A stretch of 64,000 nucleotides of DNA, taken from NCBI RefSeq assembly GCF_009917525.1, contig NZ_QZDU01000003.1:186001-250000 (forward strand), written 5' to 3'. Source of the stretch: Acutalibacter sp. 1XD8-36. GTDB lineage: Bacteria; Bacillota; Clostridia; Oscillospirales; Acutalibacteraceae. The notes under the pieces were generated by a model. It was not told the origin of the DNA, ran no database searches, and worked only from the letters and a program-made list of their open reading frames with translations. Every line of letters begins with the position of its first letter. The first letter of the stretch is position 1. The translations under genes were made by a program, and so were the position numbers. Shown in pieces: positions 38,130-48,340 of this stretch.

Positions 38130-38159
38130 CCCCTGGGGACAGGCTCCCCGGGGGCTTTT
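38130..38159 (+). terminator. Terminator of gap
   Basis: CCCCTGGGGA (38130-38139), loop of 5, TCCCCGGGGG (38145-38154), then CTTTT. The first module promoter starts 3 bases later. Confidence 0.88.
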
Positions 38160-38161
38160 GT

Positions 38162-38190
38162 TTGACAAAGTATTTTATCTATGCTAGAAT
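38162..38190 (+). promoter_or_regulatory. Peptide promoter, unit 1
   Basis: TTGACA (38162-38167), 17-bp spacer, TAGAAT (38185-38190). Confidence 0.88.
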
Positions 38191-38250
38191 AGAAATAGAC
38201 GTTGTCGCATAATGGCGGTTTAGCAACTCCCCTGAAAGGGGGTGAGGCTG

Positions 38251-38331
38251 ATGGGAAAGGTATGGAAGTACATAATAGCCATTTTATTCTGGCTTATAGT
38301 ACTGATATACATAGCACCAAAAGCATGCTAG
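38251..38331 (+). CDS. Small hydrophobic peptide, putative type I toxin, unit 1
   Basis: 26 residues: MGKVWKYI start, one hydrophobic membrane helix (IIAILFWLIVLIYI), and the end IAPKAC. Ribosome binding site GGGGGTGAGG partly sequestered by CTCCCC-TGAAA-GGGGG. The TAG stop lies inside hairpin CTAGCCG (38328-38334)/CGGCTAG (38351-38357). The size, one membrane segment, basic N-terminus and the facing RNA fit type I toxins that depolarise the membrane. I do not recognise the family. Confidence 0.75.
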   Translation: MGKVWKYIIAILFWLIVLIYIAPKAC

Positions 38332-38415
38332 CCGCCCGGTGCGCCCCGGACGGCTAGTGTTGCAAACACTAATCGAATTTTAGGGCTAAACCGCCGTGCG
38401 GCAGCGTCCCTTTAT
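38319..38415 (-). ncRNA. Antisense RNA, putative antitoxin, unit 1
   Basis: Predicted from the minus-strand promoter to the hairpin over the peptide stop codon followed by TTTT on the minus strand. Its 5' segment (GACGCTGCCGCA, GGCGGTTTAGC; 38408-38385) is a near copy of the peptide mRNA leader (38198-38224), and its 3' part overlaps the peptide mRNA end. Confidence 0.72.
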
Positions 38416-38421
38416 GCTTAT

Positions 38422-38450
38422 ATTATACCCCGGGCCATGACCCTTGTCAA
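38422..38450 (-). promoter_or_regulatory. Antisense RNA promoter, unit 1
   Basis: On the minus strand TTGACA (38450-38445), 17-bp spacer, TATAAT (38427-38422). Confidence 0.9.
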
Positions 38451-38462
38451 GCCCGGTTTTGT

Positions 38463-38491
38463 TTGACAAAGAATTTTGTCTGTGTTAGAAT
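38463..38491 (+). promoter_or_regulatory. Peptide promoter, unit 2
   Basis: TTGACA (38463-38468), 17-bp spacer, TAGAAT (38486-38491). Confidence 0.88.
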
Positions 38492-38599
38492 AACAGCAGA
38501 CGTTGTCGCATAATAAGAGTTGGAGACCCAACTCGGGCGGTTAGCCCCCGGAAGGGGGTGGTCACATTTCCCTAAGTTTAACGAGGGGAGGTGACGCTT

Positions 38600-38698
38600 A
38601 TGGGAAAAGAACGCTGGATAAAGCTCCTGCGTTTCGTGCTGGTGTTGGCGGCTGCAGCAATGCTGCTGGCCTACATAGCGCCCATAAAAGCGTGTTAG
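38600..38698 (+). CDS. Small hydrophobic peptide, putative type I toxin, unit 2
   Basis: 32 residues: MGKERWIKLLRF start, hydrophobic core VLVLAAAAMLLAYI, end IAPIKAC. It shares MGK and the YIAP-(I)KAC end with units 1 and 3 but little else, so those parts are probably functional. Ribosome binding site GGGGAGGTGA. The leader has an extra hairpin GAGTTGG-AGA-CCCAACTC. The TAG stop is inside the terminator stem GTTAGC/GCTAAC (38694-38726). Confidence 0.75.
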   Translation: MGKERWIKLLRFVLVLAAAAMLLAYIAPIKAC

Positions 38699-38784
38699 CC
38701 GCCCGGTGTGCACCCGAGCAGCTAACATAAGATAGTCAGTTGTTAGTATCTTGGGCCGACCGCCGTGCGGCAGCGTCCCTTTAT
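38690..38784 (-). ncRNA. Antisense RNA, putative antitoxin, unit 2
   Basis: From the minus-strand promoter to the stop-codon hairpin. Its 5' end (GACGCTGCCGCACGGCGGT) is the same as in unit 1, while the part overlapping the peptide gene has diverged with it, as expected for a matched pair. Confidence 0.7.
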
Positions 38785-38790
38785 GCTTAC

Positions 38791-38819
38791 ATTATACCCC
38801 GGGCCATGGCGCTTGTCAA
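38791..38819 (-). promoter_or_regulatory. Antisense RNA promoter, unit 2
   Basis: Minus strand TTGACA (38819-38814), 17-bp spacer, TATAAT (38796-38791). Confidence 0.9.
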
Positions 38820-38831
38820 GCCCGGTTTTGT

Positions 38832-38860
38832 TTGACAAAGAATTTTGTCTGTGTTAGAAT
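38832..38860 (+). promoter_or_regulatory. Peptide promoter, unit 3
   Basis: TTGACA (38832-38837), 17-bp spacer, TAGAAT (38855-38860); identical in sequence to unit 2. Confidence 0.88.
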
Positions 38861-38920
38861 AACAGCAGACGTTGTCGCATAATGGCGGTTTAGCAACTCC
38901 CCTGAAAGGGGGTGAGGTTG

Positions 38921-39001
38921 ATGGGAAAGGTATGGAAGTACATAATAGCCATTTTATTCTGGCTTATAGTACTGATATACATAGCACCAAAAGCATGCTA
39001 G
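38921..39001 (+). CDS. Small hydrophobic peptide, putative type I toxin, unit 3
   Basis: 26 residues, identical at the nucleotide level to unit 1 (38251-38331); one base differs just before the start codon. The promoter region is like unit 2 instead, so unit 3 looks like a recombinant of the two. Stop codon in the hairpin CTAGCCG/CGGCTAG (38998-39027). Confidence 0.75.
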   Translation: MGKVWKYIIAILFWLIVLIYIAPKAC

Positions 39002-39098
39002 CCGCCCGGTCAGCCCCGGACGGCTAGTGTGATGAAATAAATAAGTCACACCAAAGTTCCAAAAGGGTTAAACCGCTAATGCGGCAGCGTCCCTTTAT
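38989..39098 (-). ncRNA. Antisense RNA, putative antitoxin, unit 3
   Basis: From the minus-strand promoter to the shared hairpin. Loop and 5' region differ somewhat from unit 1 (GCTAATGCGGCAGCG on the + strand), but the GGCAGCGTCCCTTTAT core is kept. Confidence 0.7.
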
Positions 39099-39104
39099 AC
39101 TTAT

Positions 39105-39133
39105 ATTATATCCCGGGCCATGGCGCTTGTCAA
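39105..39133 (-). promoter_or_regulatory. Antisense RNA promoter, unit 3
   Basis: Minus strand TTGACA (39133-39128), 17-bp spacer, TATAAT (39110-39105). Confidence 0.9.
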
Positions 39134-39187
39134 GCCCGGATTCTGGGCAGACAGTACAAAAAGTACAGCCTGCTCATAGCCTGGAGC

Positions 39188-39810: not shown

Positions 39811-40794
39811 ATGAGCGGGCTTTTAACCGTAACCGATGTATCCAGGGAGCTGGGGCTCTCCACCAGGATGCTGCGCTACTATGAGGAGCAGGGGCTTGTC
39901 AGGAGCAGCCGGGCAGAGGGGTACGCCTACCGCATGTACGACGGGGAGGCCGTAAGGCGGCTGCGGCAGGTCATTGTGCTCCGGCGCCTGCGCATACCCC
40001 TTAGGGAGGTGAAGCTTATCCTGGACGACCCCGGTGCCCAGTGGGCCATATTCGTGTTCCAGCAGAAGCTCGCCGAGTTTGACGCGGAGCTTGCGAATAT
40101 CGGGGCGGTGCGCGCGGTGACAGAGGAGCTGCTGAACACCCTGAAGAGCCGGTACTGGCTTCCCGCTGCCGACGTGCTGCTGGACGAGGATATAAGCGCG
40201 GTGCTCCCGACTCTGACAAACTCATATGAATTAGAAAAGGAGCGTGCAAAGAAGATGGAGAATCTAAACAGGGCCGAGGACAATATGAAGCTTACGGACG
40301 TGCGTATCGTCCACTTGCCGCCTGCCACAGTTGCCGCCGCCCGCTACTTCGGCCCAGACCCCGAGGACCATGCCGGGCGGATGATAGCGGACTTCGCCCG
40401 GGAAAAGAAGCTCTGGGAGACCGGCAGCAGCCTGAGGCTCTACGGCTTCAACTCCCCCAACCCTCCCCCCGAGGGCGGGGAATACGGCTACGAGTTCTGG
40501 GTGACGATACCTGACGATATGGACGTGCCGGAGCCCCTCACAAAGAAGCACTTTAGGGGGGGCACCTACGCCGCCCACGCCATCAAGATGGGGGATTTCC
40601 ACGAGTGGGCCTGGCTCGCCCAGTGGGTGGACGAGAGCGAGGAGTACGATGTGAACGGCTCCGGGAGCCCTGCGGACATGTTCGGGAGCCTCGAGGAGCA
40701 CCTGAACTACTACGACCACATCCAGGAGACCCCAGAGGGTGAGCCGGAGACTGCCCAGCTTGACCTGCTGATACCGGTGAGGAAAAAGGCTTGA
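39811..40794 (+). CDS. MerR-family regulator with GyrI-like effector domain
   Basis: 327 residues from ATG 39811 (AGGAG 8 nt before; GTG 39802 also in frame). Residues 1-70 are the MerR winged helix (LLTVTDVSRELGLSTRMLRYYEEQGL), followed by a coiled dimer helix. From about 160 a GyrI-like ligand-binding domain (VRIVHLPPATVAAARYFGP). Similar to BmrR/TipA-type multidrug sensors. Its own promoter has a 19-bp spacer, so it is probably autoregulated; no efflux gene is adjacent. The stop codon is in the TTGACA of the next RNA promoter. Confidence 0.88.
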   Translation: MSGLLTVTDVSRELGLSTRMLRYYEEQGLVRSSRAEGYAYRMYDGEAVRRLRQVIVLRRLRIPLREVKLILDDPGAQWAIFVFQQKLAEFDAELANIGAVRAVTEELLNTLKSRYWLPAADVLLDEDISAVLPTLTNSYELEKERAKKMENLNRAEDNMKLTDVRIVHLPPATVAAARYFGPDPEDHAGRMIADFAREKKLWETGSSLRLYGFNSPNPPPEGGEYGYEFWVTIPDDMDVPEPLTKKHFRGGTYAAHAIKMGDFHEWAWLAQWVDESEEYDVNGSGSPADMFGSLEEHLNYYDHIQETPEGEPETAQLDLLIPVRKKA

Positions 40795-40887
40795 CACAGG
40801 GCCGGGAGACGGGTATAACATAGACAGAAGGTCAACTAAAATGAAAAAGCAGCCGTTCCTCAGAACCGGAGCGGTTGCTTTTTTTGT
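40791..40887 (+). ncRNA. Short RNA gene, minimal module remnant
   Basis: TTGACA (40791-40796, containing the MerR stop codon), 17-bp spacer, TATAAC (40814-40819), then about 60 nt ending in AAGCAGCCGTTCC (40847-40859)/GGAGCGGTTGCTT (40868-40880) and seven T. The terminator resembles those of the 36.5, 54.9 and 56.1 kb RNAs. It could simply be the MerR terminator; the promoter argues for an RNA. Confidence 0.5.
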
Positions 40888-40960
40888 GTTATCGTTGTCT
40901 TTTATCAGTGCAATGGCAAGCTGAATAACTAAATCAGCACGAAATTATTCGTTTATCCCC

Positions 40961-40989
40961 TTGCATTTTTGGCGATAGTAGGTTATAAT
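40961..40989 (+). promoter_or_regulatory. Promoter of the small ORF-oxidoreductase unit
   Basis: TTGCAT (40961-40966), 17-bp spacer, TATAAT (40984-40989). Confidence 0.75.
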
Positions 40990-41033
40990 CACTCTTAATA
41001 TGGGGAGACCCAAAACCTAAAGGAGGACGTGGA

Positions 41034-41183
41034 ATGCCGACAGAGAAAGAACAGCTCATCATAACAAAGGCCGCGATATATGACCTGATGGAGATACTGG
41101 ATTCAAATAAGGAAAAGGAAAGCTATACGACAGAGGAAATAAAAACAATTTTTAGGGCATATCTTAAGGAGGTTTCAAAATGA
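41034..41183 (+). CDS. 49-residue hypothetical protein
   Basis: Starts ATG 41034 after AAAGGAGGACGTGGA and ends in AAAATGA, overlapping the oxidoreductase start at 41180. The product (MPTEKEQLIITKAAIYDLME ... FRAYLKEVSK) is acidic and helical with no membrane segment. The strong ribosome binding site and ATGA overlap show it is translated and coupled to the next gene. Family not recognised. Confidence 0.75.
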   Translation: MPTEKEQLIITKAAIYDLMEILDSNKEKESYTTEEIKTIFRAYLKEVSK

Positions 41184-42238
41184 AAGTAGCAGTAATCGGC
41201 TGCGGCACCATCGCGAACACAGCCCATATCCCGTCCTATATGAACAATCCCGAGGCAGAGATTGTCTATTTCTGTGACATTATCCCGGAGCGTGCCGCCG
41301 GGGCCGTGGCTAAGTATGGCTGCGGCAAGGCGGTTGAGGACTACCATGTGGTTTTAAATGACCCGGAGGTACAGGCCGTTTCCGTGTGCACGCCCAACAA
41401 TGTCCATGCGCAGATAGCCATTGACGCCCTGCGGGCTGGGAAGGACGTGCTCTGTGAGAAGCCTGCCGCCCGCACATATGCCGAGGCCCTGGAAATGCAG
41501 AAGGTCCAGCATGAGACCGGGCGGGTGCTGAATATCGGCGTTGTGAACCGCTTTAACGACAGCGTCAACCGCATAAAGGAGTACATCGACCAGGGGAAGC
41601 TGGGCAATGTGCACCATGTCTACGCCAGCTTCAGGGCACACCGCTCAATCCCGGGCCTTGGCGGGGCATTCACCACCAAGGCCATAGCAGGGGGCGGCGC
41701 CCTTATCGACTGGGGCGTGCACTACCTGGATATTGTGATGTACTGCTGCGGCGACCCCAAGGTAAAGACCGTCACCGGGGAGACCTTCTGCAAGCTGGGC
41801 CGCGACATGAAGAACTACGCCTATGTGAACATGTGGGCCGAGCAGAGCAGCGATAAGGAGAACGGCACATATGACGTGGACGACTCCGTTACCGGCATGA
41901 TACGCACCGAGGGGCCGGTCATCACCCTCAACGGCGCCTGGGCCCAAAACATCGGCGAGAGCGAGACCTACATCGACTTCATGGGTGACAAGGGGGGAAT
42001 CCGGCTCCATTACGGCTCGGACTTCACTGTGTACACCGTGGAAAACGGGGCGCCGGTGGAGTTCACCCCCAAGTTTAACATGCGCGACCACTTCCAGAAC
42101 GAGATTGACGCTTTTATAGGCTGCATAAAGTCCGGGGAGAAGCTGCCGTCACATATTGACACGGTTATTATCACCGCTGAGATGATGCAGGCGATTTACG
42201 ACTCTGCCGAGCAGCACCATGAGATTAGCCTGGGCTGA
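41180..42238 (+). CDS. Gfo/Idh/MocA-family oxidoreductase
   Basis: 352 residues. N-terminal Rossmann domain VAVIGCGTIANTAHIPSYM, then LCEKPAARTYAEALEM with the EKP motif, and a C-terminal alpha/beta domain (GGGALIDWGVHYLDIV has the Asp/His active-site pattern). It oxidises or reduces a sugar or inositol derivative with NAD(P). A TIM-barrel isomerase two genes on supports a role in sugar or inositol use. Confidence 0.9.
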   Translation: MKVAVIGCGTIANTAHIPSYMNNPEAEIVYFCDIIPERAAGAVAKYGCGKAVEDYHVVLNDPEVQAVSVCTPNNVHAQIAIDALRAGKDVLCEKPAARTYAEALEMQKVQHETGRVLNIGVVNRFNDSVNRIKEYIDQGKLGNVHHVYASFRAHRSIPGLGGAFTTKAIAGGGALIDWGVHYLDIVMYCCGDPKVKTVTGETFCKLGRDMKNYAYVNMWAEQSSDKENGTYDVDDSVTGMIRTEGPVITLNGAWAQNIGESETYIDFMGDKGGIRLHYGSDFTVYTVENGAPVEFTPKFNMRDHFQNEIDAFIGCIKSGEKLPSHIDTVIITAEMMQAIYDSAEQHHEISLG

Positions 42239-42246
42239 GATTAAAG

Positions 42247-42783
42247 ATGGCAAAGAATGACAATACCCACGCCCTGAAATTCTTCCACAGCCTGTCAGAG
42301 CTGGACGGAGGCGCGGCGGAGGAATTTGCCCGGGAGCACCCCCTCTCGAAGTCCGCGGACTACAAAAAGAAATTCGCCTGGGCCAAGGCACAGTGTGAGT
42401 TTCTGGAGGAGCGCTTCTCCCCGGAGGAGATAGGGGAGGTCCGTGCCCGCTGCCACTGTGAGGCTGGCGCGGCTATGGCGAAGCGTATGCGGGGATATCT
42501 GGAGAAGTCGGAGGACTTGTCGGAGTTTGCCCGGATATTTAACGAGCGGGAGAAATATGTGACCCTGGAGGCGGCAGACGGCGGACTGCTGTTTGTGTAC
42601 CCCGAGTGCTACTGCGCCTGCGTCAAGCGCACCCCGGAGCCAATCTCAAGGACCTGGTGCCTGTGCACCCTCGGGCACATCCGGGGGCTGATGTCCCAGG
42701 TGCTGGGCCGGGAGCCACAGGTGGAGCTGCTGGAAACTATCAAGTCCGGCGGCGAGAGATGTATAGTTAAAGTCTATATATAA
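42247..42783 (+). CDS. Cys-containing hypothetical protein
   Basis: 178 residues, following the oxidoreductase by 8 bp. It has a conserved-looking Cys cluster: RCHCEAGAAMAKRM in the middle and YPECYCACVKRTPEPISRTW, then WCLCTLGHIRGLM, which could bind a metal or thiol ligand. It resembles the DUF6144/L-2-amino-thiazoline hydrolase-like group, but I cannot assign a reaction. Part of the oxidoreductase operon. Confidence 0.65.
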   Translation: MAKNDNTHALKFFHSLSELDGGAAEEFAREHPLSKSADYKKKFAWAKAQCEFLEERFSPEEIGEVRARCHCEAGAAMAKRMRGYLEKSEDLSEFARIFNEREKYVTLEAADGGLLFVYPECYCACVKRTPEPISRTWCLCTLGHIRGLMSQVLGREPQVELLETIKSGGERCIVKVYI

Positions 42784-42801
42784 TAATTAAGGAGAGTAAA
42801 T

Positions 42802-43641
42802 ATGTATAAATTTCCTATAGGCGTACTGCTGGAGAGCTTTAAGCTCCCCATTATCGAGTCCCTGGACAAGGCCAAGGAGCTGGGCATGGACGGCGTGCAG
42901 ATACGCGTCACCGACGGCGAGCTGACCCCTGAAAACCTCACCCCCGAGAAGCGCCGGGAGCTCTTAAAGGCCGTGAAGGACAGGGGGCTGACGGTCTCAG
43001 CCCTCTGCGGGGATATCGGGCGGTTTGACGACCCGGAGATAAACCCCGGCAGGATTGAGCGCTCAAAGCGGATACTGGACCTTGCCATGGATTTGGAGAC
43101 TGATGTGGTGACTACCCACATAGGTGTTGTGCCTAAGCAGAGCTCACACCCCAGGTATGGTATAATGCAGGAGGCCTGCGGGGAGCTGGCCCGGTATGCG
43201 GACAGCCTTCGTGCCCACTTCGCCATCGAGACCGGCCCCGAGGAGGCCGTCACCCTGAAGGCCTTCCTGGACGGCCTGCACTCCACCGGCGTGGCTGTGA
43301 ACCTGGACCCCGCCAACTTCGTTATGGTGACAGGGGACGACCCGGTGCAGGCGGTCTACACCCTTAAGGACTACATCGTGCACACCCACGCCAAGGACGG
43401 CAAGCGCCTGCGCTATGTTGAGCCGGAGATTGTCTACCGGGTGGCTGAGGCCGAAATGCTGGGCAGCAGCTCCTTCATCGAGCTGCCCCTGGGCGAGGGC
43501 GTGGTGGACTTCCCGGCCTACCTCAAGGCCCTGGAGGACATCGGCTTCAAAGGCTTCCTCACCATCGAGCGCGAGGTTGGGGACGACCCGGGGAAGGATA
43601 TCGCCGCGGCGGTCGGGTTCCTGAAGGGGATTATTGGATAA
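42802..43641 (+). CDS. Sugar phosphate isomerase/epimerase family protein (TIM barrel)
   Basis: 279 residues, preceded by AAGGAGAG. Xylose isomerase-like TIM barrel (AP endonuclease 2 fold): AIETGPEEAVTLKAFLDGL, NLDPANFVMVTGDDP, and IVHTHAKDGKRLRY provide the metal ligands Glu, Asp and His. With the oxidoreductase and the Cys-rich protein it forms a small catabolic operon for a sugar or cyclitol. Confidence 0.88.
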   Translation: MYKFPIGVLLESFKLPIIESLDKAKELGMDGVQIRVTDGELTPENLTPEKRRELLKAVKDRGLTVSALCGDIGRFDDPEINPGRIERSKRILDLAMDLETDVVTTHIGVVPKQSSHPRYGIMQEACGELARYADSLRAHFAIETGPEEAVTLKAFLDGLHSTGVAVNLDPANFVMVTGDDPVQAVYTLKDYIVHTHAKDGKRLRYVEPEIVYRVAEAEMLGSSSFIELPLGEGVVDFPAYLKALEDIGFKGFLTIEREVGDDPGKDIAAAVGFLKGIIG

Positions 43642-46847: not shown

Positions 46848-47682
46848 GCCGGGGCAGGGCACAAAGCTTCTGAGCTCCGCGGAGCTGCAGCTGGTGAAGA
46901 AGGACATGAAGTCCATCTGGACCAGGAGCAGCCGCCGGGCGCTCTTGGTGCTGCTGCCGGTAATGCTGGTGGTAGTGATACCGGCGGTGTATTTTGTACT
47001 GATACTGCTAATGCCAGAGGCTCCCGGGGCAAGGCCCCCTGAGGCTCTTACGGCGCTGCTGCCGGAGTATGTGTCTGGGCTGGGGTACAAGCAGGGGTGG
47101 CTGGTGATTTTCACGGATTTGCTCTGCCCTATGCTTTTCCTCTGCGTGCCCATACTCACCGGCGCGGCCTCAGCCAGCTACGCCTTTGTAATGGAGCGGG
47201 AGAGCGGCACCCTGGAGACGCTGCTGCTTACCTCCATGGGCCCGAAGTCTGTGTTCAACGCCAAAACTACCAGCTGCACGGTGCTGTCGGTGCTGATTTC
47301 AGGGGCGGGCTTCCTGGCCTTCGCCCTCACGGTCACCGTAGCGGACGTGTTCGCAGAGGTGCGCCTGTTCTTCACCCTGGACTGGCTCATCCTGCTGGTG
47401 CTGGAAATGCCCACCCTGTCCCTTTTCTCAGTGGTCTTCGTGGCGCTCACCGTCACAAGGGTACACAGCACCGTGGAGTCCCTCCAGACCATGGGCTACC
47501 TGATACTGCCTGTGGCGGCAATCTACCTTATGCAGCTTACCGGAATCTTCCGGCTGAACATCATAGCCCTCATCCTAATCTCAGCAGCTTTAGCGGTGCT
47601 GGACGTGGTATTCTTCAACGCGGCCTCCAGAGGGTTTACCCCCGAAAAGCTCCTGGAGCGGGACGGAGTGGGGGAGGAATAG
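46768..47682 (+). CDS. ABC-2 type permease subunit
   Basis: 304 residues from ATG 46768 (GGGAGGCGG before it), read in another frame over the last 80 bp of the ATPase gene. Basic N-terminus, then six hydrophobic segments (first: ALLVLLPVMLVVVIPAVYFVL), with ERESGTLETLLLTS, the conserved coupling motif of ABC-2 exporters. Substrate unknown. Confidence 0.82.
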   Translation: MGRQETKHSSSRQRSQAQRVPSQREAEPGQGTKLLSSAELQLVKKDMKSIWTRSSRRALLVLLPVMLVVVIPAVYFVLILLMPEAPGARPPEALTALLPEYVSGLGYKQGWLVIFTDLLCPMLFLCVPILTGAASASYAFVMERESGTLETLLLTSMGPKSVFNAKTTSCTVLSVLISGAGFLAFALTVTVADVFAEVRLFFTLDWLILLVLEMPTLSLFSVVFVALTVTRVHSTVESLQTMGYLILPVAAIYLMQLTGIFRLNIIALILISAALAVLDVVFFNAASRGFTPEKLLERDGVGEE

Positions 47683-47693
47683 ATTTTTGGGGG

Positions 47694-47722
47694 TTGCAAT
47701 TTCGTGGAGGCTGTGTTATAAT
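47694..47722 (+). promoter_or_regulatory. Antisense RNA promoter, 47.7-kb module
   Basis: TTGCAA (47694-47699), 17-bp spacer, TATAAT (47717-47722). Confidence 0.85.
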
Positions 47723-47728
47723 ATACCT

Positions 47729-47795
47729 GAAAACGTAACGTCCATAGCGCTTTCACCAAAGTCGAACCCCCGGAGATACGGCTCCGGGGGTTCAT
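47729..47795 (+). ncRNA. Antisense RNA, putative antitoxin, 47.7-kb module
   Basis: About 67 nt. Its 5' half holds ACGTCCATAGCGCTTTCACC (47738-47757), nearly the same as 47918-47938, which is the complement of the facing peptide's ribosome binding site and start codon. It ends in the perfect hairpin GAACCCCCGGAG (47764-47775)/CTCCGGGGGTTC (47782-47793). Confidence 0.8.
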
Positions 47796-47808
47796 TCTAT
47801 GGAGGGCC

Positions 47809-47925
47809 TTACTTGCCCTTTTTGCCCTGCCGCAGACGGCGGAACAGGCTAGGAAGGATGGAGCCTATGTAGTTGGCAGCCAGCCCACCGAGGACGGAGA
47901 CAAAAAAGTCCCATAATACGTCCAT
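47809..47925 (-). CDS. Small membrane peptide, putative type I toxin, 47.7-kb module
   Basis: 38 residues on the minus strand: MDVLWDFFVSVLGGLAANYI, then GSILPSLF and a basic tail RRLRQGKKGK. One amphipathic or membrane helix with a positive C-terminus, as in many type I toxins. Ribosome binding site AAGGAGGTGACAAGCGCT before ATG 47925; this site and start codon are the target repeated in the facing RNA. Stop TAA 47809-47811, before the shared terminator. Confidence 0.78.
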   Translation of the reverse strand: MDVLWDFFVSVLGGLAANYIGSILPSLFRRLRQGKKGK

Positions 47926-47976
47926 AGCGCTTGTCACCTCCTTCTTGTTGCTCTGAAGGTTCGGGCAAGTGTATAT

Positions 47977-48005
47977 ATTATACCAACCATGTTGAATCCT
48001 GTCAA
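47977..48005 (-). promoter_or_regulatory. Peptide promoter, 47.7-kb module
   Basis: Minus strand TTGACA (48005-48000), 17-bp spacer, TATAAT (47982-47977). Confidence 0.9.
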
Positions 48006-48029
48006 TAAATACAGGGCATAATTGTATGC

Positions 48030-48058
48030 TTGACAGCCGGGGGAAAATCTGATACAGT
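48030..48058 (+). promoter_or_regulatory. Promoter of the TSCPD protein gene
   Basis: TTGACA (48030-48035), 17-bp spacer, TACAGT (48053-48058); AAGGAGGT precedes ATG 48089. Confidence 0.78.
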
Positions 48059-48088
48059 ATATATGTAAATAATTAAGGAGGTACCGCT

Positions 48089-48340
48089 ATGGAATTTCAC
48101 TATAACCCCACTGGGGTGTGCAGCAAGGGCATAGACATTGAGCTGGACGGGGATATCATCAAGTCCGTCAAGTTTACCGGCGGGTGCAACGGCAATACCC
48201 AGGGTGTTGCGGCACTGGCAAAGGGGATGACCGTGCAGGAGTATATCAGCCGCTGCAAGGATATTAAGTGCGGCCTGAAGAAGACCTCGTGCCCGGCCCA
48301 GCTTGCGCTGGCGCTGGAGGAGGCTGTGCTGGCAAAATAA
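48089..48340 (+). CDS. TSCPD domain-containing protein (four-Cys family)
   Basis: 83 residues. Cys residues in PTGVCSKGI, FTGGCNGNTQG, DIKCGLKKTSCPAQLA define the small TSCPD protein family, also found fused to class II ribonucleotide reductases. A metal or thiol role is likely; the function is not known. Single-gene unit with its own promoter and terminator. Confidence 0.9.
   Translation: MEFHYNPTGVCSKGIDIELDGDIIKSVKFTGGCNGNTQGVAALAKGMTVQEYISRCKDIKCGLKKTSCPAQLALALEEAVLAK

Follow-up and report, generated by a model that had tools for sequence, protein, structure and literature searches.

The closest described systems to the locus considered here are par of pAD1, with its toxin Fst, and the type I toxin-antitoxin modules of Clostridioides difficile. 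In the passages of Weaver's review that treat it (PMC7472228), par of pAD1 combines convergent promoters, a bidirectional terminator and direct repeats through which the initiation codon and Shine-Dalgarno sequence are hidden with a 5' stem-loop and an upstream helix that hides the mRNA 5' end; the same passages give as the Fst signature a Trp between the helix and a charged tail, mostly with a P/D/S/TxxxG motif, and describe the tail of PepA1 as arginine-rich and YUNR as a feature that not all homologs possess. Sections of two reviews mention Fst-like peptides in Clostridia (PMC6563280, PMC7472228), and convergent overlapping pairs are described for the C. difficile modules in parts of PMC6563280 and PMC7699646. 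Here we analyse positions 47,694 to 48,005 of a 64,000-nucleotide stretch of the Acutalibacter sp. 1XD8-36 genome (contig NZ_QZDU01000003.1, positions 186,001 to 250,000; hereafter the window), where a predicted short plus-strand RNA faces a minus-strand open reading frame (ORF) for a membrane peptide of 38 amino acids (aa). This locus is very probably a chromosomal type I toxin-antitoxin module that resembles pAD1 par in its construction, and would represent par-like control of a peptide outside known toxin models.

A start-site repeat and its cognate pairing

The sequence ACGTCCATAGCGCTT occurs exactly at 47738-47752 and again at 47918-47932, as a perfect direct repeat of 15 nucleotides (nt). 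TCACC follows immediately in the first copy and one extra base later in the second, so that pairing between RNA and mRNA would extend over 20 bp with one bulged mRNA base. A first-pass annotation, made from the sequence alone, had placed the repeat plus TCACC at 47738-47757 and again at 47918-47938, where it covers the peptide's ribosome binding site and ATG, and both sites do carry the exact 15 nt; the consensus promoters that it saw on both strands, and the convergence of the transcripts on a perfect 12-bp hairpin, were likewise recovered (Table 1). Because the hairpin is common to both transcripts and the repeat is present as well, the two RNAs can pair twice, once through their complementary hairpins and once through the repeat. 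An exact direct repeat of at least 15 nt arose anywhere in only 1 of 2000 first-order Markov copies of positions 47500-48200 (701 bases). The pattern ACGTCCATAGCGCTTN{0,2}CACC is found in its own genome at these two window sites only, and once in 28 other genomes of the genus, at the syntenic locus of the genome designated G010. Two own-genome copies of the repeat with 3 mismatches, inside genes that read as dnaK-like and recG-like, were taken as chance.

The evidence that argues most strongly for the module is comparative, namely a repeat changed on both sides in place in G010 and cognate specificity across 59 loci. The G010 locus is placed as in the window, with the end of a permease-like ORF before it and a TIGR03905 TSCPD gene after it. 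Both copies of its repeat (target ATGTCCATACTGCTTAACACC, antitoxin ATGTCCATGCTGCTTTCACC) have changed relative to those of the window, and inside these 15 nt the one position that differs between the copies stays a G-U pair. Predicted duplex energies are -37.7 kcal/mol for the window pair, -33.8 kcal/mol for the G010 pair, and -22.5 kcal/mol for the G010 toxin mRNA with an antitoxin of the window type. Such an antitoxin lies directly before the G010 locus (L002 1215-1350), with a promoter, a hairpin and a 20-nt core, ACGTCCATAGCGCTTTCACC, identical to that of the window. It is followed only by IRQSKKGK, which we read by eye as the last codons of a lost toxin, and an exact pattern search of G010 (93% complete) gave no target for it. 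This RNA is a possible orphan antitoxin that would confer immunity. When genome contigs were searched with a DNA pattern of the antitoxin-hairpin junction, the G010 contig and four others matched.

The comparison extends to relatives that end in KWLD followed by a short charged tail, hereafter the KWLD family, of which profile matches indicate that the window peptide is a diverged branch; the family is found on chromosomes, small plasmids and phages. Each start region was aligned to the 230 nt past its stop codon and scored against 200 shuffles, which were dinucleotide shuffles for the first 40 loci and single-base shuffles for the plasmid and viral, later, pooled and control, Fst and phiC2 sets. 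A repeat at or below 2 of 200 shuffles was obtained at 30 of the first 40 loci (0 of 200 for the window), at 20 of 27 plasmid and viral loci (2 further loci were too short) and at 33 of 40 later loci, a set from which 12 of 52 had been left out (10 lacked a clear peptide where one was expected, and 2 ran off the end of a contig). In the pooled set of 103 toxin loci, 75 attain 2/200 and 94 attain 10/200. The upstream region that served as a control in the later set had a lower mean score (15.6 vs 21.5), exceeding the repeat at three loci in tandem arrays (L186, L188, L192), and in the first set the match of L079 falls in the next leader of its array, not in an antitoxin. Many family alignments are interrupted by 2-5 nt, close to the start codon or past it, implying that the pairing is split into two blocks by a bulge in the mRNA. 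The first-pass annotation had made its reading depend on whether relatives conserve the repeat pairing; we find that the pairing is kept while the sequence changes.

Duplexes between predicted transcripts point in the same direction. Over 59 loci, the window included, the mean energy was -36.1 kcal/mol for cognate and -17.3 kcal/mol for non-cognate pairs, the cognate duplex was strictly best at 50 of the 59, and none of 2000 permutations reached the cognate mean, near-identical antitoxins being excluded from each comparison. Four loci had been dropped before the promoter, hairpin and duplex counts (L095 and L119, without a family peptide; L097 and L117, duplicates), and three more before the 59-locus statistics (L114, L110 and L107, with a miscalled hairpin). 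With those three kept, the cognate was strictly best at 23 of 62 loci and among the best three at 57, which we attribute to the over-long L114 piece. For the four modules of the window's own genome, own pairs range from -31.0 to -37.7 kcal/mol and others from -12.9 to -20.4, and these modules are predicted to be mutually orthogonal, without cross-talk.

The KWLD family and the architecture of its loci

Antitoxin DNA similarity, and not the peptide profile, yielded the first three KWLD loci, leading to diverged loci in G003, G007 and G002 (one example peptide is VQWVIDFILSAAASVAASYICKWLDGRRKGKR). A two-row profile recovered the window itself and otherwise weak matches (58 of 398 genomes at E 0.1; best other 5e-5, L017). 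With five rows and the own genome included, matches were found in 13 of 29 same-genus genomes at E 0.1 (11 at 1e-5) and in 15 of 398 genomes drawn from the bacterial family at E 0.001, one of these (L095) being no module; a 40-row profile at E 1e-4, again including the own genome, matched 18 of 335 genomes from the order and 12 of 338 from the phylum. Three further copies exist in the own genome (C43:28060, C43:204299, C21:538260). Members also occur on small plasmids of Waltera, Mediterraneibacter, Mogibacterium and Butyricicoccus, on Ligilactobacillus plasmids and in inovirus-like phages, and a pattern search of IMG/VR returned 18 stretches, one of which (L119) is not family. No annotated feature lies under a family match in the 20 listed of 38 plasmid records, for which the gene table is incomplete. 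Tandem arrays holding three to five family members, in most cases with a spacing of about 400 nt, were observed at G1106:C28 (about 40504-42912), G1096:C4 (36246-37062) and G967:C23 (95580-96846).

The pair formed by the window and G010 peptides matches the KWLD profile over the N-terminal 23 residues (hhalign 95.8%, E 6.8e-9), a match that is partly circular, as many loci were found with a profile that included this pair. Other searches returned little: tblastn with the window peptide gave no match in phages or plasmids, PADLOC none for three peptides, and solved structures none for one relative. The best PHROGs match was phrog_738, of unknown function (E 1.4e-5), and one relative reached 12 bits against Ldr_toxin PF13940 (E 0.23, cut-off 27). 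Nothing exceeded the gathering score in Rfam, where isrJ, at 25 bits vs 37, was taken as chance. Literature searches by family peptide strings found no paper, and searches by topic gave none on the KWLD family as judged by titles and abstract starts, subscription papers being mostly outside their coverage.

The first-pass annotation had also assigned the peptide to a different family from the array at 38 kb. This stands in that it is unlike the array peptides, whose three short ORFs have no start-site direct repeat, and needs amending in that it would not stand alone, being a diverged KWLD relative by its profile matches. The array itself (window 38156-39142) consists of three tandem units encoding peptides of 26-32 aa that end in AC (MGKVWKYIIAILFWLIVLIYIAPKAC twice). 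Its leaders are complementary to the post-stop region in 2 of the 3 units (0 and 1 of 200 shuffles; third 42), which is a fold-back rather than a par layout.

The elements predicted around the window repeat were also scored across the family, the leader stem-loop and 5'-3' fold-back being the more weakly predicted ones. Counting consensus matches only, an antitoxin promoter of at least 9/12 is present at 62 of 63 loci vs 58 of 315 shuffled sequences, and a toxin promoter of at least 8/12 at 58 of 62 vs 121 of 315. Hairpins were scored at 62 of 63 loci, L009 having no promoter in reach, and gave a mean stem of 13.6 bp vs 5.8 bp in shuffles. The Shine-Dalgarno sequence is predicted to be at least 3/5 paired in the leader at 56 of 59 loci, a count without shuffled control. 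The leader fold has a mean of -15.0 vs -10.6 in shuffles, with 27 of 59 loci at or below 2/50, and pairing of the 5' end with the stop-codon region a mean of -15.7 vs -11.7, with 23 of 59 at or below 5/100. In the minimum-energy fold of the predicted 207-nt window mRNA, ACUUGCCC at the 5' end forms an 8-bp helix with GGGCAAGU, which codes for the closing residues of the KGK tail and the first stop base.

The window peptide, MDVLWDFFVSVLGGLAANYIGSILPSLFRRLRQGKKGK (minus-strand ORF 47925-47812), comprises a hydrophobic stretch, FFVSVLGGLAANYIGSILP (best 19-aa hydropathy 1.52), followed by a basic tail; an in-frame upstream GTG at 47937 offers a possible alternative start. The predicted plus-strand RNA begins with GAAAACGTAACGTCCATAGCGCTTTCACC. 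Promoter-like sites number 5 in 901 nt vs 0.7 in shuffles.

Table 1 Predicted parts of the probable toxin-antitoxin locus, in window coordinates
Feature	Position	Strand	Remarks
Antitoxin RNA promoter, TTGCAA-17-TATAAT, TG ahead of -10	47694..47722	+	10/12 consensus matches
Predicted antitoxin RNA, 65 nt, ending with hairpin	47729..47793	+	start inferred, 7 nt past -10
Repeat copy in antitoxin 5' arm, ACGTCCATAGCGCTTTCACC	47738..47757	+	
Perfect 12-bp hairpin common to both convergent transcripts	47764..47793	.	probably terminates transcription from both sides, T run absent
Predicted toxin mRNA, 207 nt	47764..47970	-	both ends inferred
3' arm of predicted fold-back helix, GGGCAAGU	47811..47818	-	also codes Gly-Lys (last two codons) and first stop base
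Membrane-peptide ORF, 38 codons	47812..47925	-	stop codon 47811-47809
Target repeat copy	47918..47938	-	spans Shine-Dalgarno end, ATG and next codons
Predicted 5' stem-loop, CCUUC/GAAGG	47940..47959	-	overlaps Shine-Dalgarno
5' arm of predicted 5'-3' fold-back helix, ACUUGCCC	47963..47970	-	
Toxin promoter, consensus TTGACA-17-TATAAT, TG ahead of -10	47977..48005	-	12/12 consensus matches

Several side observations concern individual loci. At L050 1414-1512 (G002) the family toxin frame seems to begin at ATT after GGGGTGAG, and by reading there is no in-frame ATG, GTG or TTG at the expected place. The hairpin AACCCCCGGAG..CTCCGGGGGTT is not diagnostic alone: a copy in G003, near 3211932 (L049 1500-1535), lies between genes with no family peptide or repeat visible by eye, and the hairpin may be a common terminator in this genus. 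Elsewhere in the window, the minus strand at 48593-48441 encodes a 50-aa Cys/Gly-rich peptide with a hydrophobic start (MCNNSCSWIIIILLLLCCCGGGCG...) and no NCBIfam match.

Weighing the alternatives

A number of observations weigh against a par-like module. No terminator-like site is found at the window locus, the 12-bp hairpin having no T run; the distance from GGAGG to ATG in the mRNA is 11 nt, a long spacing; and shuffled sequences do as well as the window leader fold in 10 of 50 cases and as the fold-back in 4 of 100. The 28 other same-genus genomes hold a single ortholog of the peptide (that of G010, 53% identical), whose repeat is equalled by 20 of 200 shuffles in the gapped test and is thus not outstanding. 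In the wider family, the repeat at 9 of the 103 pooled loci fails to do better than 10/200, among 103 control small ORFs that possess a Shine-Dalgarno sequence 9 reach 2/200 and 20 reach 10/200, the cognate downstream region was strictly best against those of other loci at only 26 of the first 40 loci (30 of the 40 later ones), and the loci are not independent, some being near-identical. Furthermore, an annotated Fst locus (L138) shows no repeat under the same script. Finally, the Trp-Leu-Asp junction (W-[LMIF]-[DNE]) of 58 of 61 KWLD relatives is absent from the window and G010 peptides, and the window peptide could be altered or decayed.

This last point bears on the potential explanation that the module is decaying, with the toxicity of the peptide lost and the RNA retained. 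The window C-terminus is indeed unlike that of the family, and the G010 antitoxin left without a toxin shows that such arrays decay; however, the ORF, Shine-Dalgarno sequence, 12/12 promoter and repeat are all intact, and the closest relative, that of G010, keeps the same kind of long basic tail, and we consider decay unlikely. Distinctly unlikely, too, is an antisense RNA that controls a non-toxic small membrane peptide, such as a modulator of the adjacent transporter. Such a role would suit a peptide without the WLD junction of its relatives and an antitoxin promoter that starts 12 nt past the end of a permease-like ORF (permease by reading, with no NCBIfam match), yet the same neighbour genes are seen in G010 only, and relatives lie on small plasmids, on phage or viral contigs and in tandem arrays, as for selfish toxin modules. 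The plasmid and phage relatives suggest selfish maintenance.

The convergent overlap is shared with C. difficile-type modules, in which the RNA would act by 3' overlap alone and the repeat would be incidental, and the family weakly matches the N-terminal half of NF047374 (best member 24.6 bits and window 13.4 bits, neither passing the cut-off of 60). We nevertheless hold this reading to be highly improbable: two phiC2 toxins that pass NF047374 (78.8 and 82.2 bits) show no repeat at the start site (190 and 181 of 200 shuffles did equally well), whereas KWLD loci have one with cognate specificity. Scarcely any credence, lastly, attaches to a repeat that is a product of chance or recent local duplication and has no function, an explanation already disfavoured. 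The control ORFs that reach 2/200 speak for it, although by reading four of these nine belong to the family, one more sits in a family array and the other four do neither; the rarity of a 15-nt repeat in the Markov simulations speaks against it, as do the changes on both sides in G010 and the recurrence of the repeat with other sequence in relatives.

Comparison of relatives supports the type I toxin-antitoxin reading, which the first-pass annotation had proposed. Under this reading, the minus-strand mRNA would encode a membrane peptide expected to be toxic, and the convergent plus-strand RNA carries a hairpin complementary to that of the mRNA, where, by analogy with par, loop-loop contact probably starts pairing. 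The antitoxin 5' arm would then form a duplex of about 20 bp with the mRNA, covering its ribosome binding site, its ATG and the codons that follow, a step for which sequence and covariation argue, and this pairing would block translation. Meanwhile the predicted 5' stem-loop and 5'-3' fold-back would keep free mRNA untranslated and stable, and the one-base bulge here, like the small gaps in relatives, may, speculatively, limit RNase III cleavage. If the locus were lost, or synthesis of the short RNA stopped, cells would translate the peptide.

The analysis suggests what a class of short hydrophobic peptides may do in Clostridia of the gut, on small gut plasmids and in phages, and it yields a sequence rule for finding more, namely a start-site repeat downstream of a small ORF and ahead of a convergent promoter. 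The many natural compensatory pairs provide material for testing the evolution of antitoxin specificity, and G010 a case of an antitoxin that appears to have outlived its toxin. More tentatively, and as a combination that we regard as possible without leaning towards it, Clostridia may hold many apparently little-annotated, mutually orthogonal par-like modules whose repeats drift as private codes. Orphan antitoxins such as that of G010 would then provide immunity to incoming elements with a matching toxin, KWLD peptides would connect Fst with the toxins of C. difficile under two different modes of RNA control, and the last toxin codons would double as a fold-back RNA arm, which would account for the KGK tail that recurs in this genus.

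Comparison with C. difficile modules and with par

With CD0956.2-RCd10 and CD0977.1-RCd11 of C. difficile, the window locus has in common a clostridial host, convergent transcription and a similar hydrophobic N-terminal half, as judged by the weak NF047374 matches; the C. difficile modules differ in their long Lys-rich tail. A search of the own genome with NF047374 gave one match, below the cut-off.

Profile searches place the peptide apart from Fst. Neither PF13955 nor NF033608 matched the window peptide or 13 relatives, while three Fst peptides used as a control do match NF033608. PF13955 gave no match in 394 genomes from the order, but it passed its cut-off in none of 14 control genomes either, so this search has little power. 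In hhalign, the window pair reached 0.9% against the Fst profile. The 61 KWLD peptides reached 90% against seven Fst peptides, where full column shuffles gave at most 24.6%; shuffles of the transmembrane columns that kept the WLD tail reached 94.7%, and the likeness between KWLD and Fst peptides therefore rests mainly on the WLD junction. The window and G010 peptides have no Trp ahead of the charged tail, the window tail is basic, unlike that of pAD1 Fst, and by reading the window mRNA loop, CCGUAU, contains no YUNR. SVLGG in the window peptide (SxxxG) does fit the P/D/S/TxxxG motif, as by reading does SVLSG in G010, and the motif is present in 22 of 61 KWLD relatives.

Seven Fst-like plasmid loci, drawn from 389 matching records and of which six are annotated as Fst, were passed through the same script as the KWLD loci, and six of the seven gave a repeat, interrupted by 1-3 nt close to the start, in agreement with the Fst/RNAII comparison of the first-pass annotation. 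The window locus has convergent promoters, a common hairpin and start-site direct repeats, to which its mRNA adds, as predictions, a 5' stem-loop at the Shine-Dalgarno sequence and a 5'-end helix. By any model tested the candidate toxin is not Fst, and the layout, judged by its predicted elements, is that of par.
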